Assembly: GCF_000177235.2 (NCBI RefSeq)
Contig: NC_014829.1
Location: 2,294,001 to 2,358,000 of the forward strand
DNA length: 64,000 nucleotides
DNA from: Evansella cellulosilytica DSM 2522
Lineage (GTDB): Bacteria; Bacillota; Bacilli; Bacillales; Salisediminibacteriaceae
Reading direction: 5' to 3'
In this document: in pieces, positions 21,936 through 31,666 of the stretch
How the letters are laid out: the number at the start of each line of letters is the position of its first letter
Numbering within the stretch: the stretch's first letter is position 1
Translations under genes and position numbers: made by a program
Notes under the pieces: model-generated
Told to the model about the DNA's origin: nothing
Seen by the model: only the letters and a program-made list of their open reading frames with translations
Databases searched by the model: none

Positions 21936-22910
21936 CTATTCAAATAAACTCTTGATTGCAGAAAACTGATTATGGCGTTTCTTAACATCTGTATTTGCCA
22001 TTTGTACGTAATGGTTAGTCATATGGAGTGTTGTATGTCCTAGAATTGATTTTAGTGAAAATGGATCACCGCCATTCATAATGTATAATATAGCACCTGA
22101 ATGTCTCCATATGTGAGGACTAACTTGCTTATTAATACCTGCTGCTTTTCCATAGTCCATTAGAGATTTTCTAACAGTGTTAGCTGATAGAACTTGTCCA
22201 TCATAAGTAAGGAATAATATCTCTTGTTCAAAATCACTTGTTTCATTAATGTATTCTTGAAGGAGTTTTGATGTTCTTGTTGATATTGGTACAAATCTAT
22301 CAACCTTTGTTTTGGTTCCATCTGCTTCAAGTTTTATTACTCCATTTCTTAAATCAACATTTTCACGCTTAATAGCTAAAAGCTCGCTAATTCGAGCCAT
22401 ACTATCAAGCATAGTAAAGAATAAAACTTTATCACGGAAACCAGCATAATAATCATCGTTAATTTGACTTAGTAATAGTTTGATTTCTCGTGGAGACAAT
22501 GCATCTACTTCTTTTTGTGGAGCTTTAACAGGTTTAAATTTCTCATGTATTGGCTGGTCTATCCAACCTTCTTCATAACTATATCGTAAAAATGCACGAA
22601 TAGTTCGAAGTCTAATGTTAACTGTTGATGCTTTTAGACCTAAATCATTTAACATGTAATTTCGATATTCAAGAAAGATTTCAGTAGTCATTTCATCTGC
22701 CATAAGATCACGTTCAAGAAAGTCCAGTAAGTATTTAAAGTGTACATCATAATCAAATAGTGTTTGCTTAGATAAACCTTCACTTTTCTTAAATAATAGA
22801 AAACGCTCATACATTTCAGTTAGTGACAGGTTGATCTTATTTTGTTTTTTTACTCTTGTAGAATCAGTAAACCTTTTACCTTTTTTCATTTTTGTTCTTT
22901 CTCTTAACAT
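21936..22910 (-). CDS. int: Prophage integrase (tyrosine recombinase)
   Basis: A 324-residue tyrosine recombinase. Catalytic residues are R173 (MARISEL), K200 (DGTKTK), H266-x-x-R269 (HIWRH), H292 (GHTT) and Y301. A Phage_int_SAM-like core-binding domain covers about residues 30-115. A strong AGGAGG precedes the ATG. It ends the prophage 175 bases from the 3' end of tRNA-Sec, so selC is the likely attB. Confidence 0.93.
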   Translation of the reverse strand: MLRERTKMKKGKRFTDSTRVKKQNKINLSLTEMYERFLLFKKSEGLSKQTLFDYDVHFKYLLDFLERDLMADEMTTEIFLEYRNYMLNDLGLKASTVNIRLRTIRAFLRYSYEEGWIDQPIHEKFKPVKAPQKEVDALSPREIKLLLSQINDDYYAGFRDKVLFFTMLDSMARISELLAIKRENVDLRNGVIKLEADGTKTKVDRFVPISTRTSKLLQEYINETSDFEQEILFLTYDGQVLSANTVRKSLMDYGKAAGINKQVSPHIWRHSGAILYIMNGGDPFSLKSILGHTTLHMTNHYVQMANTDVKKRHNQFSAIKSLFE

Positions 22911-23085
22911 AATAAAAACCTCCTATAAAATGGTTATAGAAGGTAGCTAAACATTATTTACACCCAAAGGACTAGTCGCCAGTATTAAAAAGGTCTAGTA
23001 AAAAAGTTTATTTTAAACCTTTGGGGATAAATTAATTTTATAGATATGAGCAATCACCGACAAACGCCGTCATATCAACGTTGTT

Positions 23086-23112
23086 TGGCGGGACCGTGTG
23101 GGAATCGAACCC
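23086..23112. other. Probable attachment (attR) region in the 3' end of tRNA-Sec
   Basis: The tRNA 3' end (T arm, acceptor strand and CCA) faces the integrase gene, the usual arrangement for integrases that use tRNA genes. The core length is unknown because the other att copy is outside the window. The preceding 22,911-23,085 stretch has no gene but contains CCCAAAGG and CCTTTGGGG, which could be arm-type sites. Confidence 0.55.
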
Positions 23113-23182
23113 ACCGAGCTTGGCACGCAAGCCCCTGAAGGTTTTGAAGACCTCGGCAAACACCAGTTACACAACCGGCCCC
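23086..23182 (-). tRNA. selC: tRNA-Sec (anticodon TCA)
   Basis: A 97-nt tRNA read on the minus strand. The acceptor arm GGGGCCG pairs with CGGTCCC, followed by G and an encoded CCA. The anticodon loop CTTCAAA carries TCA within a GAGGT/ACCTT stem, a long variable arm follows, and the T arm is GTGGG-TTCGATT-CCCAC. The eighth acceptor pair appears as a G/A mismatch. The length and long variable arm are typical of selenocysteine tRNA, and selB, selD and selA are nearby. Confidence 0.93.
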
Positions 23183-24334: not shown

Positions 24335-26224
24335 ATGACAAAGCAATATTATACGATTGGAATGGCCGGTCATGTCGACCACGGAAAAACATCATTAACA
24401 AAAGCGCTAACAAATATAGAGACAGACAGGCTAAAAGAAGAAAAAGAAAGAGCGATTTCAATAGAACTAGGCTATGCACCTTTAAAAATAGATGAAAACA
24501 CGCAAGTTTCTATTATCGATGTCCCAGGCCACGAAAGGTTTATTAGGCAAATGATTGCCGGTGTTGCTGGAATTGACCTTGTCATACTTGTAGTTGCAGC
24601 AGATGAAGGGGTAATGCCTCAAACAGTTGAGCACCTACAGATACTCCAATTACTTGGTATACATAGAGGATTAATCGTTGTTACAAAAATGGATCTAGTA
24701 GAAGAGGACATGAAGGAGCTTATTGAAGCAGACATATTTGAAAAAATAACAGACACTTTTTTTGAAGGAACAGAATTGTTATTTGTAGATAGTGTTTCAA
24801 AAAAAGGAATTCCCGAGCTAATACGAAAAATGGAAGAATATTTAAAAGATGTACCTGTTCGAAATGCAAGCGGTCCGTTTCGTTTACCAATAGATCAAGT
24901 TTTTACCGTACATGGACAAGGGACAGTAGTACGTGGGACAGTTTACGAAGGGGAAGTGAAGGAAGGAGAGGTGTTAGAGCTTTTACCTCAACAGAAGAAA
25001 GTTCGCGCACGACAGTTACAAGTGCACAATGAAACACAGTCTCTAGGGCGAGCGGGTCAAAGACTAGCGATTAATGTAGGCGGAATAGCAAAAAATGAAG
25101 TGAAACGTGGGGATGTTCTAGTATCTACTCAATATTATACTTCTACTAAAACAATTGATGTTTGTTTAGATACATTTGAATCATTAAAGTTTTCGTTAAA
25201 ACAGCGGAATGCTATTAAGCTTCATCTTGGAACTGCAGAGGTATATGGGAAAATTGTATTCTTTGATCGTAATGAGCTTACAGCTGGTCGACACGTGTTG
25301 TGCCAACTCCGATTAGATCAACCTGTTGTTACGAGAAGGGGAGACCGCTTTATTTTGAGAAGACCTACTCCCGTCGAGACGGTAGGAGGCGGCTTTGTTA
25401 TTGATCCAAACGGGGAAAAATATAAGTTTGGTGAAAGAACAATTGCGTTGCTTTCTAGAAAAAAAGAAGGTACTCCTGAAGAACGTATTATAGACGTGTT
25501 AAAAGTGAATAAAAGTATGACATTACAGGAGCTTGAAAAAGAAGCGAGTGTACCTGCCACAGAATTGCAGGAAATCGTCACGAAACACCCTCATTCTCCA
25601 TTTAGAAAGCTTCAAAATCAATACATGCTAAAGGATGTCTATGATGAGTGTATTCATATGCTTACTATCGAGCTAAATGATTACCATAATAAATTTCCCC
25701 TTCGTGAAGGGAAAAACAAAGCAGAATTAATGCAACAATTTAACGTTTACGGATCAAGTGTAATCGAGGCAGTAATTGAAGAAGGGATCGTTACGAATGT
25801 TTTCAAGAAAAATAAACAATTTATTGCTACTTATGACTTTTCTCCATCATTCCCGAAGCAATGGGAAAGAAGAATGAACCAAGTTATTTTAGCGATGGAA
25901 AAAGAAGGTCTACAAGTTAGTCCATTTACTGATCTTGTAAATAACGCAGGAATTCCACTTGAGTTACAAGAGGAGTTACGCCATTTTCTCTTACGAACTT
26001 CCAAAGTTATTGAACTAGATGAAAAGCATATTTTATCTAAAACAGCATTCGAGGCTGCTGTGCAAAAAGTGAAAGAGAATATAGCTGATAAATTTGATTT
26101 ACAAACAGCAAAATCAGTTTTAAATATATCAAGAAAATATTTGGTTCCACTACTCGAAGCTTTTGACGAACAAAAAGTAACAAAAAGAGAAGGGAACGAG
26201 CGAGTGTTTTTGGATAATAAATAG
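24335..26224 (+). CDS. selB: Selenocysteine-specific elongation factor SelB
   Basis: A 629-residue GTPase that delivers Sec-tRNA to UGA codons marked by a SECIS hairpin. G1 is GHVDHGKT (12-19), G3 is DVPGHERF and G4 is TKMD. EF-Tu-like beta-barrel domains follow, and the last ~200 residues are winged helices that bind the SECIS ([13 protein letters not shown] region). GTGAGGG precedes the ATG. It lies 1.2 kb from selC and near selD and selA. Confidence 0.97.
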
Positions 26225-26361
26225 TACTGTATGCATTTTAGTTGCCGAACATAATATATTATATTAATATAGGTATAAATCCCTAGATCAATTAGACTAA
26301 TGATATTTGTTCAGGGCTCTCTATTTTTTAAATGCCTCGGAAAGGAAAGAGGTCAAATGAA

Positions 26362-27381
26362 ATGCATACAAACATGAGTAAGTATGATCTGTTTAAATGG
26401 AGATTATATTTATGGAGCTACCCGATTATTATAGCAGCTTTGTGCTCAAATGTTTTGCAGTGGCAAAATTATAGTAATTTAATGAAATCAATAATTATCT
26501 TCTTAATAATATGGAATACCGTTGCATGGTTTTTATTATTTAAAAGAAAATACTTCAAGACTGTTGAGATAATAAGCTTATGTATAATAAGTATTACTTA
26601 TTTGTTTGTTTATGAAAGAGTATTATCTCAATTAAATGTCTCAGCTTATCTCTCGATGGAGCTCTTATTTTGGACACCGTTAATTTTTATTTATATTTTT
26701 ATTGTGCTTAAAGGAAAAAAAGGTTTCATTTATGCATTAACATTATGGATCATCACACTATGTGTACACATGTTCTACTCGTTAGATTTACCTAATGAAG
26801 TTAATTACTCATATATACAGTTTCATTTTTCAAGTATTATGTATATTACTTTTCTTTTATTTTCGCAAGTAATTTTTAGGTCATTTATTGAATCGGAAGT
26901 TATTGAAAAATATGCCTTCAAGGATTTCCTGACAGGAATTAATAACCGTAGAATGATGTATTCGTATTTAAAATCTGAAATAAAGAATAAAAAAGAGCTC
27001 ACAGTTATTTTTTTCGATATTGATCACTTTAAAAAGATTAATGACCAACACGGACATTTTATTGGTGATGAGATATTAAAAGAAGTGACCAACGTTGTAT
27101 TAACACGATTAACTAAAAACGAAACATTTGGACGGTGGGGTGGAGAAGAATTTATCATTGTTAGTAAAGGAACAGGTCTAGAAAATACGATCACACTCGC
27201 AGAAGAAATAAGAAAAACGATTAAAGATCACTCTTTTACAAATAAACTCCAAGTTACTTGTAGCTTTGGTGTAAAGCAGTTTCAGTATAATGACACATTA
27301 AACTCGTTTTTAAGTGAAGCAGATAAAGCACTATATTTAGCAAAAGAAAACGGAAGAAATAAAGTAGAAGTAACAAAATAG
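26362..27381 (+). CDS. Membrane diguanylate cyclase (GGDEF)
   Basis: A 339-residue protein with about six membrane helices in the first 180 residues and a C-terminal GGDEF domain. The active-site motif is GGEEF (260-264), with the FFDIDHFKKIND metal/substrate segment upstream. It should make c-di-GMP. No RxxD inhibitory site is obvious just before the motif. ATG 26362 is chosen because AAAGGAAAGAGG precedes it. It sits between selB and selD but has no evident link to selenium. Confidence 0.88.
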   Translation: MHTNMSKYDLFKWRLYLWSYPIIIAALCSNVLQWQNYSNLMKSIIIFLIIWNTVAWFLLFKRKYFKTVEIISLCIISITYLFVYERVLSQLNVSAYLSMELLFWTPLIFIYIFIVLKGKKGFIYALTLWIITLCVHMFYSLDLPNEVNYSYIQFHFSSIMYITFLLFSQVIFRSFIESEVIEKYAFKDFLTGINNRRMMYSYLKSEIKNKKELTVIFFDIDHFKKINDQHGHFIGDEILKEVTNVVLTRLTKNETFGRWGGEEFIIVSKGTGLENTITLAEEIRKTIKDHSFTNKLQVTCSFGVKQFQYNDTLNSFLSEADKALYLAKENGRNKVEVTK

Positions 27382-27414: not shown

Positions 27415-28470
27415 CTACTTCACATAAATTTGTTTTTCTTTCGGTTCATGTACGGTACCGATGATAGTAGCTTTAGAAACAGCGTTTTCGTTTAATTGTT
27501 GCACATATTGTTCAGCTTGTTCCTTCGGTAAACTAATAAGAAGGCCCCCCGATGTAATAGCGTCACATAGAATGAGGTGGTCAATGTCAGTAAGAGACGA
27601 CTCAAAGGAAATTTTTTCCTTTAACCAAGCGTAATTTGCTTTACTTCCTCCTGGAATGACACCTTGGTGTGCAAGCTCTTTCGTTCCGTTTAGCAAAGGC
27701 ACATGATCAAACAGTATATCGAAGCTAACCTTACTGCCACTTGCCATTTCAAAAGCATGGCCCATTAACCCAAACCCCGTAATATCTGTTACAGCGTGAG
27801 GAGTGAACGATTGTAACGTTTCACATGCGATGCGATTTAACTCTGCCATCGTCTCTGTCACAGCGGTTGTTTGTTCCACACTTGTTTTGTCTCGTTTTAT
27901 ACCTGTAGTTAGAATTCCAACACCAATTGGTTTAGTAAGAACGAGTGCATCACCTGGCTGTGCACCAACGTTTTTAAAAATGCGTTCAGGGTGTACTACT
28001 CCAGTTACACTTAATCCAAATTTCGGTTCTTGATCATCAATAGAATGTCCACCTGCAATCACGGCACCAGCCTCATCGACTTTATGAGCAGCCCCTTTTA
28101 AAATTTGAGCAAGCATTTCGTGAGGTAATTTTTTTATAGGGAAACCAACGATATTAAGAACCGTTTTCGGAATACCGCCCATTGCATACACATCACTTAA
28201 CGCATTTGCAGCTGCAATTTGACCAAACATGTATGGATCATCAACAATAGGTGTAAAGTAATCGACAGTTTGAATAAGTGCAATTTCATCGGTCAACTTG
28301 TAGACACCACCATCATCTGATGTTTCATGACCTACGAGTAAACGCTCATCATTATTTGACTTCGGTAAATGGCGCAGTACCTGCGCCAGGTCACTAGGAC
28401 CAATTTTACATCCTCAACCAGCCTTTGAGGACATAGCTGTTAATCTAAATTGCTTATCGTGTTGATCCAA
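27415..28470 (-). CDS. selD: Selenophosphate synthetase SelD, itself a selenoprotein
   Basis: Makes selenophosphate from selenide and ATP. The ordinary open frame begins at 28296, but the N-terminal glycine loop lies upstream across an in-frame TGA at 28416-28414. Reading it as Sec gives AGUGCK, the SelD active site, with U at residue 19 and the usual Lys. The full protein is 351 residues from TTG 28470, preceded by AAAGGAGGTG. Further motifs are GGHSID and DITGFGLMGH. A SECIS-like hairpin follows the TGA. Automatic callers may truncate it. Confidence 0.95.
28370..28388 (-). promoter_or_regulatory. Bacterial SECIS hairpin in selD mRNA
   Basis: TGGCGCAG and CTGCGCCA form a perfect 8-bp stem with loop GTA, starting 26 nt after the TGA, so the loop begins at +34. 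A G at the first loop position and a loop 16-37 nt from the UGA fit the bacterial SECIS consensus. A smaller GGTC/GACC hairpin lies just before it. Confidence 0.7.
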
Positions 28471-28547
28471 TGAAAACACCTCCTTTACTAATACATTACA
28501 TAAAGAGAACGAGTTTGTCTAAATGGAAGTAATGAGAAGTATTATTT

Positions 28548-28576
28548 TTGATTTATTTACAATGCTATTATAGAAT
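28548..28576 (+). promoter_or_regulatory. Sigma-A promoter of the SelW-like gene
   Basis: TTGATT (28548-28553) and TAGAAT (28571-28576) with a 17-base spacer, about 45 bases before the start codon, in the intergenic region divergent from selD. Confidence 0.65.
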
Positions 28577-28620
28577 GTACTTGTACTAAGCACAAAAAAT
28601 TTATAAAGGGGACATGTCAC

Positions 28621-28857
28621 ATGGCTTACAAAATGACAGTTGAATTTTGCCAACAGTGAAACTATGCACCTAAAGCTGCGAGTTTCGCAGAAGAGCTATT
28701 TAATCATTTCCGAGCAAACATTACAAACCTAAACTTAGTTGCAAGTTCAGGTGGTGCATTTGAAGTGTTTGTTAACGGTGAAAAAGTTTATTCAAAATTG
28801 GAAACAGGTCAGTTTCCATCTACTGAAGAAATAATTAAAATAATGGAATCAAGTTAA
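28621..28857 (+). CDS. SelW-like (Rdx family) selenoprotein, CxxU
   Basis: A 78-residue selenoprotein that a standard caller would miss, because codon 13 is TGA (28657-28659). Reading through gives CQQU at residues 10-13, replacing the CxxC/CxxU redox motif of the SelW/SelT/SelH thioredoxin-like family. The downstream SGGAFEVFVNGEKVYSKLET and TEEIIKIM match the conserved part of SelW proteins. AAAGGGGAC precedes the ATG, and a SECIS-like hairpin and a terminator follow. Probably a thiol oxidoreductase. Confidence 0.92.
28676..28690 (+). promoter_or_regulatory. Bacterial SECIS hairpin in the SelW-like mRNA
   Basis: CTGCGA-GTT-TCGCAG is a perfect 6-bp stem with a three-base loop beginning with G at +23 after the TGA. 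It shares the CTGCG/CGCAG stem type and GT-starting loop with the selD hairpin. Confidence 0.75.
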
Positions 28858-28860
28858 AAA

Positions 28861-28887
28861 AAGACCTCGTTTTTCGAGGTCTTTTTT
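28861..28887 (+). terminator. Terminator after the SelW-like gene
   Basis: AAGACCTCG / CGAGGTCTT arms with a T5 loop, followed by TTTTT. Confidence 0.9.
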
Positions 28888-28975
28888 ATTATAGTAATTG
28901 TGAAGTAAATGAAGTGTACGGAACGAAATAGATAAGAACGTAGGAAAGCAAATGACGAGTGTTGTTCGAAGTCTA

Positions 28976-29580
28976 ATGCTACCCGATAAATTGAAATTGA
29001 GCAGATGAAGGTCATCATACAAAGGCTATGCTACCCGACAAAACGAAGTTGAGCAGATGAAGGTCATCATACGAAGCCTATGCTGCCTGAAAAATTGAAA
29101 CCGAGCATGCTACCCGACAAAACGAAACCGAGCAGATGAAGGTCATCATACGAAGTCTATGCTGCCTGAAAAATTGAAACCGAGCAGATAAAGGTCATCA
29201 TACGAAGTCTATGCTACCCGACAAAACGAAACCGAGTAGATGAAGGTCATCATACGAAGTCTATGCTGCCTGAAAAATAGAAACCGAGCAGATAAAGGTC
29301 ATCATACGAAGTCTATGCTACCCGACAAAACGAAACCGAGTAGATGAAGGTCATCATACGAAGTCTATGCTGCCTGAAAAATAGAAACCGAGCAGATAAA
29401 GGTCATCATACGAAGTCTATGCTACCCGAAAAATAGAAATCGAGCAGATGAAGGTCATCATACGAAGTCTATGCTACCCAAAAAAATGAAATCGAGCAGA
29501 TGAAGGTCATCATACGAAGCCTATGCTACCCGAAAAATAGAAACCGAGCAGATGAAGGTCATCATACGAAGCTAATGCTA
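28976..29580. repeat. Tandem array of 52-bp units of two alternating types
   Basis: Eleven full 52-bp units plus one 27-bp truncated unit, each beginning ATGCT and containing GGTCATCATACGAAG. In the centre of the array, type A units (ACCCGACAAAACGAA) alternate with type B units (GCCTGAAAAAT). The unit length is not a multiple of three, and no open frame runs through. No unique spacers exist, so it is not a CRISPR. It lies between the SelW-like gene and selA. Confidence 0.93.
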
Positions 29581-30253: not shown

Positions 30254-31666
30254 ATGACACAACCAATTCGATCAATCCCTGCTATGCATGAAGTGCAGAA
30301 AACGGACGTATATAAAAAACTTAGCAATGATATTCCGACACTTATATTAAATAATTGGATTAAAGCTTCTATTGAGAATACGAGAAAAGATATTTTAAAT
30401 AATCGAGAAAATTATGAAGATGTATCGAGAATAGACCATATACGGAAAATTACGGAATACTTAATAAAACAATCCAATCATTTTTCTCCATTCAGGCTCC
30501 AAAAAGTAATTAATGGTACTGGAACTGTGTTGCACACAAATTTAGGTAGAGCACGTCTCAGTGAAACTGCAATGAAACGAGTTGTTGAAACATCAGCGAA
30601 TTATAGTACCCTTGAATATGATGTAGAGAAGGGAGAGAGAGGCTCACGCCATGATATTATTCAAGACCTGTTATTAAAAGTGACAAACAGCGAAGCCGCC
30701 ATGGTAGTAAACAATAATTCCGCTGCAGTCTACTTTATATTAAAAGCACTTTGTCAAGATAAGGAAGTTATCGTATCTAGGGGAGAATTAGTTGAAATTG
30801 GTGGTTCTTTTCGTGTTTCAACGATTATGGAAGAAAGTAGAGCAAAACTAGTAGAAGTTGGGACTACAAATAAAACCCACGAATTTGACTACAAAAACGC
30901 TATTACTGATGAAACAAAAATGCTGATGAAAGTACATACGAGTAATTTTAAAACGGTTGGATTTACAAAGGAAGTTTCATCTAAAGGCCTTAAAAAGATT
31001 ACCCAACAAACAAATAAAGAAATAATTATTTATGAAGATTTAGGAAGTGGCTCACTTTACCCTTTTCAGCATAATGGTATCGGTGACGAACCGGTAGTGA
31101 AAGAGGCGTTAAAGCATGCAGATGTTGTTTCTTTTAGTGGGGACAAGCTCCTTGGTGGTCCACAAGCAGGCATTATAGTAGGAAAGAAAGATATAATAAA
31201 TAAATTGAAAAAACATCCACTAGCGAGAGTGTTAAGGGTAGATAAAATGACACTAGCTGCATTAGAAGCGACGCTACAACAGTATTTATTTGGTCAAGAG
31301 CTACAAATACCTACGATAAGAGATGTCCTGCAATCAAAGGATGATGTTTTATCAAAAGCAATGACATTTTTAGAAAATTTAAATCAAAACAGTAATGTAG
31401 GCGGAGAAATAGCGAGTGATTTCTCTTATGTTGGTGGAGGAACGATGCCTACAGAAAAACTACAAACATATGGTGTAATTTTAAAATCAGAGCATTACTC
31501 AGCTAATCAACTCGAGAAAAAGTTAAGAGGCGGGGAAACTCCCGTAATTACACGTATGAAAGACGGACATGTTTTCATCGATTTTCGCACGATTACTACA
31601 GAAGAAATTGATGTATTATTAGAGTCTGTAAAAAAAGTATGTAGTAATAGAGATAAACTACAGTAA
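30254..31666 (+). CDS. selA: L-seryl-tRNA(Sec) selenium transferase SelA
   Basis: A 470-residue PLP enzyme that converts Ser-tRNA-Sec to Sec-tRNA-Sec using selenophosphate. The N-terminal helical domain (IPAMHEVQK) recognises the tRNA. The motif NGTGTVLHTNLGRA lies near residue 95, and the PLP lysine is K298 in FSGDKLLGGPQAG. The length is normal for bacterial SelA. TTGGAGAGG precedes the ATG. It is separated from selD and selB by the repeat region rather than being in an operon. Confidence 0.97.
   Translation: MTQPIRSIPAMHEVQKTDVYKKLSNDIPTLILNNWIKASIENTRKDILNNRENYEDVSRIDHIRKITEYLIKQSNHFSPFRLQKVINGTGTVLHTNLGRARLSETAMKRVVETSANYSTLEYDVEKGERGSRHDIIQDLLLKVTNSEAAMVVNNNSAAVYFILKALCQDKEVIVSRGELVEIGGSFRVSTIMEESRAKLVEVGTTNKTHEFDYKNAITDETKMLMKVHTSNFKTVGFTKEVSSKGLKKITQQTNKEIIIYEDLGSGSLYPFQHNGIGDEPVVKEALKHADVVSFSGDKLLGGPQAGIIVGKKDIINKLKKHPLARVLRVDKMTLAALEATLQQYLFGQELQIPTIRDVLQSKDDVLSKAMTFLENLNQNSNVGGEIASDFSYVGGGTMPTEKLQTYGVILKSEHYSANQLEKKLRGGETPVITRMKDGHVFIDFRTITTEEIDVLLESVKKVCSNRDKLQ

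Follow-up and report, generated by a model that had tools for sequence, protein, structure and literature searches.

Two probable selenoprotein genes, selD and a SelW-like gene, beside a selenocysteine decoding set in Evansella cellulosilytica

The selD gene of Evansella cellulosilytica DSM 2522 and a small SelW-like gene lying head to head with it are, with a probability of about 95%, ordinary bacterial selenoprotein genes in which an in-frame UGA codon is read as selenocysteine (Sec). Both genes are located in a stretch of 64,000 nucleotides (the window; positions 2294001-2358000 of the source genome, a single contig of 4,681,672 bases), and coordinates given below are those of the window unless a genome label precedes them. 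This reading is based on the reading frames, their homology, the invariance of the Sec position, covarying hairpins, a full decoding set and co-occurrence with SelB. Insertion of Sec, and binding of SelB to both hairpins, would be expected from the established biology of these systems. The two genes are new members of known selenoprotein families; the present analysis adds the like-formed covarying hairpins, the family-wide presence of a Sec-containing SelW, and the absence of a TGA-containing formate dehydrogenase from 13 of 27 genomes. No paper on Evansella selenoproteins was found in the open-access library searched.

Three collections of genomes were used for comparison. The family set comprised 35 genomes from the family of the source organism. 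The named set came from a scan in which 103 relatives were found and the best 80 loci were kept; these are mostly from Bacillaceae genera and are the nearest relatives by sequence. Four genomes were common to both sets. The third collection consisted of 398 Bacilli genomes, in which profile matches over the cut-off were recorded for SelB and Rdx. The source genome is labelled G000, and other G numbers denote relatives.

Read-through frames and the sel locus

The selD gene (selenide, water dikinase) occupies 27415..28470 on the minus strand and encodes 351 aa from a TTG start at 28470, with GGAGGTG just upstream. Translation of the TGA at 28414-28416 as Sec19 gave the active-site loop SKAGUGCKIGPSD. 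The upstream extension of 58 codons and the AGUGCK site, as originally predicted, were borne out by a match to TIGR00476 of 419.6 bits (cut-off 125) over residues 9-318 of 351, and the protein also matched PF00586 and PF02769, the AIRS N and C domains. When aligned with PDB 3u0o, the AGCGCK of that structure fell on AGUGCK, placing the active-site Cys opposite Sec. No difference was seen from Sec-containing selenophosphate synthetases of TIGR00476, which share the loop. SelD is the second most frequent selenoprotein family in Table 3 of PMC5029168.

The SelW-like (Rdx) gene is found at 28621..28857 on the plus strand and encodes 78 aa, with AAAGGGG upstream of the ATG at 28621 and a TGA at 28657-28659; its read-through translation is EFCQQUNYAPKAASFAEE around Sec. 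The predicted 78-residue frame with CQQU matched PF10262 (Rdx) with 82.7 bits (cut-off 22.6) over residues 4-75 and TIGR02174 (CXXU_selWTH) with 71.6 bits (cut-off 34.2), and scored 80.0 against NF041051, under the cut-off of 88. CQQU was aligned with the CTQC of PDB 2fa8. Alignment to the SelD and SelW families, the check that had been proposed, thus gave matches across both read-through frames, covering nearly the whole domain in the SelW-like protein. In its CxxU motif, length and near-full domain match, the small protein showed no visible difference in anatomy from the SelW-like family. It would be a small thiol/selenol redox protein of the Rdx family, as judged from the established biology of its relatives. 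SelW-like proteins with CxxU are given as a bacterial selenoprotein family in the accessible text of PMC9312934 and PMC13188914, and are among the two most widespread selenoprotein families in the marine survey of PMC2398784, as far as its accessible text goes. In Table 3 of PMC5029168 the family comprises 35 organisms, compared with which more members were found here, in Bacilli. The accessible part of PMC1794560 describes SelW-like proteins as having few or no Cys homologues among Sec users. Relatives of the protein were also present in 29 plasmid records, 28 of them below 60% identity.

The original prediction placed a complete selA, selB, selC and selD set within the same 8.6 kb, and this set was recovered between 23086 and 31666. 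The selC gene (tRNA-Sec, anticodon TCA) lies at 23086..23182 on the minus strand, with an Rfam score of 60.2 bits. An open reading frame with a profile match identified each of selB (Sec-specific elongation factor, 629 aa; 24335..26224, plus strand) and selA (L-seryl-tRNA(Sec) selenium transferase, 470 aa; 30254..31666, plus strand). In the proposed mechanism, SelD would make selenophosphate while itself carrying Sec in its N-terminal active-site loop, SelA would convert Ser-tRNA-Sec to Sec-tRNA-Sec, and SelB would deliver the latter to a UGA that has, further downstream and in frame, a SECIS hairpin whose apical loop contains GU.

The region 28471..28620 lies upstream of both selD and the SelW-like gene, which are divergent, and the head-to-head position of the two suggests co-regulation with selenium supply. 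When 8-mers were counted in this intergenic region across 59 loci, the top word (45 loci) was the ribosome-binding-site word, and TAGTATAA-like words and TGAGTGAA were found in 31-33 of the 59 loci. In every one of the 80 named loci the SelW-like gene was followed on its own strand by selA, at less than 1 kb in 77 and at 2.8, 4.0 and 7.2 kb in the rest, and selD was divergent upstream in 62 of the 80 (at 1.8 kb in L105). Among the 28 family genomes, 26 have divergent Rdx and selD matches at a distance of 132-413 bp; the exceptions are G031 and G033. Across Bacilli, Rdx was within 20 kb of selB in 14 of the 53 genomes having both, which makes the link with the sel locus a feature of the clade.

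Several other elements were observed at the locus. A GGDEF diguanylate cyclase gene (26332-27381) lies between selB and selD. A terminator-like hairpin with a T-rich end follows the SelW-like gene (28856..28890, plus strand); it was recognised by eye and is absent from the hairpin-scan list. Between the SelW-like gene and selA there is a tandem array (28976-29580) with a 52-bp unit, present in 9.1 copies at 29107-29580 and as variants before that. About 37 kb of prophage-like sequence, whose capsid, tape-measure and similar labels were assigned by eye, adjoins selC and takes up positions 1-23164 of the window. Its integrase (21936-22910, minus strand) adjoins the tRNA-Sec gene, which is intact on the right side of the stretch, and a perfect direct repeat of 84 bp was found at 23081-23164 (most of selC) and at the far end (G000:C1:2280199-2280282).

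Conservation of the UGA codons and of the hairpins

The SelW set contained 107 sequences, 103 of them distinct, after a truncated remnant (L028 of G015) had been dropped. All 103 distinct sequences had Cys at -3 and TGA at position 0. Rdx was matched in 28 of the 35 family genomes. In 27 of these the TGA occupies the CxxU position, and the remaining match, in G015, is a truncated remnant with a TGA elsewhere. All 80 named loci had CxxU with TGA, as CMQU (53), CMMU (24), CQQU (2) or CMKU (1). The selD profile scored over the cut-off in 28 of the 35 family genomes, and 27 of these have the TGA; among the 80 named loci the gene was seen in 63, and no selD lay within reach in the other 17. The resulting 91 loci (28 family and 63 named) represent 87 genomes when the shared four are counted once. 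The active-site residue was U in 90 loci and C in one (G015), or U in 86 of 87 genomes. A missing U or C at these positions in homologues, or loss of the frame in close relatives, had been named as grounds for giving up the idea of two selenoproteins decoded by adjacent Sec machinery; the conserved U and the kept frame support it instead.

Each gene has a SECIS-type hairpin 3' of its UGA. That of selD (28369..28389, minus strand) has the loop GUA, GUN in relatives, 33 nt from the UGA, and that of the SelW-like gene (28673..28693, plus strand; CUGCGA-GUU-UCGCAG) has its loop about 21-22 nt from the UGA. The consensus forms are (G)RCGCRA-GUN-UYGCGY for SelD and CYGCRA-GUU-UYGCRG for SelW, with GU within the loop in 87 of 87 SelD and 102 of 103 SelW sequences. 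Synonymous choice was constrained over these regions: in SelW, codon entropy dipped at codons +6 to +11, with AGT for all 101 Ser at codon +8 and GCG for 99 of 103 Ala at codon +7, and in selD it was low from about codon +8 to +14, with GAC for all 80 Asp at codon +8. The six pairs of the SelW stem were standard in all 103 sequences, with variants at one pair (CG 59, TA 39, TG 5) and at another (GC 99, AT 4). A SelD pair that is silent on both sides was A-U in 71 of 87 loci and G-C in 15, with one mismatch.

Covariation was assessed on an alignment that pools the SelW and SelD hairpins, and the within-gene pair counts above were made separately. Among 58 distinct pooled hairpins, pairing was kept in 99.7% of 348 cells. 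Double changes occurred in 79 cells, compared with 12.7 +/- 2.9 after shuffling, and none of 500 shuffles reached 79; the pooled score fell from 0.583 to 0.248 or less once the partner was slid. Two of the five measures did not exceed shuffling: the number of pairs changed on both sides was reached by 48 of 500 shuffles and that of further pair types by 30 of 500. On the SelA tree of the 80 loci, a quick method gave at least 12 changes of pair type at SelW -5/+5, at least 4 at SelD -1/+1 and at least 13 at SelD -6/+6.

The hairpins resemble published bacterial SECIS elements, as far as their sequences and predicted folds go. The bSECIS model, as set out in the accessible part of PMC13188914, has a small loop at a distance of 16-37 nt from the UGA, with G within the first two loop nucleotides and U directly after it, a stem of at least 4 pairs and an energy limit of -7.5 kcal/mol. 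Both hairpins share the spacing, the small GU loop and the stem length with that model. The selD hairpin fits it (-12.9 kcal/mol, spacing 33, loop 3, stem 8); the same fit was found at 11 of 1388 TGAs on the plus strand of the window and at none of 25 control frames of at least 100 codons ending in TGA. The SelW hairpin alone, at -5.8 to -6.5 kcal/mol, is weaker than the published limit, while its loop and spacing fit, and it failed our in-house coding of the model, which takes perfect stems only. Folding of 45 nt beyond the UGA gave -7.8 kcal/mol, and over 42 nt 99 of 103 sequences reached -7.5. Formate dehydrogenase genes of relatives have such hairpins too: at 13 loci, all with TGA, the loop was GGUCU (12) or AGUUU (1). 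GU in a small loop, common to these hairpins and to those of SelW and SelD, is in keeping with the bSECIS model.

It is hardly credible that the two TGAs terminate translation or arose as sequencing errors, with the frames being pseudogenes or short genes of their own. The table-11 frame of selD (27415-28296, minus strand; 293 aa) does begin at a TTG downstream of the TGA, as this explanation would have it. Against it stand the TGA at the active-site position (103 distinct sequences for SelW, 86 of 87 genomes for selD), the covarying hairpins and the absence of a model hairpin from the control frame ends, a comparison in which the SelW hairpin likewise failed.

A search of the genome for other frames bearing the hairpin had been suggested, and it returned the two known ones and weak matches that were rejected. 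Model R1 was built from the SelW and SelD hairpins, and the broader R2 adds those of formate dehydrogenases. With R1, the top two matches in the source genome were the known hairpins (27.2 and 26.9 bits), both of them in its training set, followed by weak matches at 17.0 and 16.3; 150 of 585 first-look candidates were scored. R2 recovered both known hairpins, with four weak matches besides (18.1, 17.8, 17.6 and 15.3 bits). Together the weak matches of R1 and R2 make five distinct sites; four lack a TGA at 12-44 nt upstream, and at the remaining one there is no usable frame. At E <= 2, R1 gave no match at the Sec-formate dehydrogenases of family genomes; it is thus not a general SECIS detector, and its negative result is worth little.

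A third candidate selenoprotein of the source genome, found by a family search, lies outside the window (G000:C1:1436616-1437176, L228). This Prx-like AhpC-TSA_2 protein contains TGUPIC, whose Sec falls opposite the first Cys of CPFC in two homologues from rhizobia, and has the strong ribosome-binding site GGAAGGAGG before its ATG. A hairpin (CUCGCGC-AGUU-GCGUGAG, -10.1 kcal/mol) is located 25 nt after the UGA. Neither R1 nor R2 listed this hairpin, a further sign that both models are incomplete. The gene is directly downstream of one with sigma-70 regions 2 and 4.

Distribution of selenocysteine use

SelB was over the cut-off in 29 of 35 family genomes and in 85 of 398 Bacilli; Sec use is therefore a minority trait in the class and the rule in the family of the source organism. 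The earlier view that selenoproteins are uncommon in Bacillaceae was overstated, given these family genomes and a Sec-SelW in the best 80 loci of 103 relatives in the named scan. Rdx was present in 56 of the 398 Bacilli, and SelB accompanied it in 54 of these 56, compared with 31 of the 342 genomes without Rdx. A TGA was contained in 57 of the 60 Bacilli Rdx matches (two of them with two TGAs), a count of presence and not of the CxxU position; the three without were from G035, which has a second copy with TGA, G323 and G159. The two Rdx genomes without a SelB match were G159 and G140. The latter genome is 100% complete and its Rdx (G140:C5:181797-182018) has a TGA, and the surrounding 19 kb contained no further sel match. 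Within the family, Rdx was absent from all 5 near-complete genomes without SelB over the cut-off. G017, a genome that is 76% complete, has TGA-containing formate dehydrogenases, yet its SelB, SelD and Rdx were not over the cut-offs.

This co-occurrence also bears on whether UGA might be read by near-cognate suppression, with Trp or Cys inserted in place of Sec. Nothing specific speaks for such a reading, and it is very unlikely in view of the absence of Rdx from the five genomes just mentioned, the selA, selB, selC and selD genes beside both frames, and the location of the TGA exactly at the catalytic position. Decoding as Sec is the preferred reading for both genes.

It had also been expected that gene callers would truncate selD and miss the SelW-like gene. 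In one annotated relative, Cytobacillus spongiae (NZ_CP089998.1), only the second part held: selD was annotated at full length (1062 bp, spanning the TGA), and the SelW frame had no gene in the annotation table as listed, which is incomplete. Proteomes of this group may consequently lack SelW.

Role of the SelW-like protein and maintenance of the Sec trait

The most likely role of the SelW-like protein is that of a general thiol redox partner. Its place between selD and selA raises another possibility, namely that it is part of the selenium supply and passes reduced selenium or electrons to SelD or SelA. The gene order described above is in agreement with this, as are the Sec in SelW at all 80 named loci, its absence from the five family genomes without SelB, and G015, where truncation of SelW accompanies a Cys-containing SelD. 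Nevertheless, 31 of the 85 SelB genomes in Bacilli have no Rdx, the linkage of Rdx to selB across the class is loose, and the synteny of the named loci is not independent evidence, because these loci are the nearest relatives by sequence. A function in selenium supply is accordingly judged unlikely, and a general redox partner is preferred.

Among the 27 family genomes with both Sec-SelD and Sec-SelW, there were 13 (G000, G001-G005, G007, G008, G012, G014, G020, G022 and G027) whose formate dehydrogenase alpha matches, listed in full, did not include one with TGA. There are two such matches in the source genome, neither of which contains TGA, and none at all in G022. Thirteen other genomes had at least one match with TGA, and the single match of G011 was outside the matches listed. 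In the 13 genomes TGA was checked in Rdx, SelD and formate dehydrogenase, and AhpC-TSA was covered in the source genome only. The selenouridine synthase profile TIGR03167 had no match in the source genome at E <= 1e-3 and was over the cut-off in 21 of the 35 family genomes. The idea that formate dehydrogenase or SelD is the main keeper of the Sec trait, which appears in the accessible parts of PMC1794560 and PMC13188914, has to face these 13 genomes.

G015, a sister genome of the same genus, provides a single case of what looks like a recent loss of Sec use (L219, G015:C18:149000-158500). Its SelD has Cys at the active site and a relic hairpin scoring 24.8 bits, and the first 25 SelW residues, including CxxU, were not matched in the stretch examined. 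The genome keeps selB and selA, the latter cut by the end of the stretch. It is conceivable, though improbable, that in Bacilli without a Sec-formate dehydrogenase SelW would keep the Sec code alive as a selenium-supply partner of SelD, and that loss of SelW would start decay of the type found in G015.

A small Sec protein is widespread in this clade, nearly always with Sec and tied to SelB, which fills in the picture of selenium use in Bacilli and gives ready experimental access to what SelW does.
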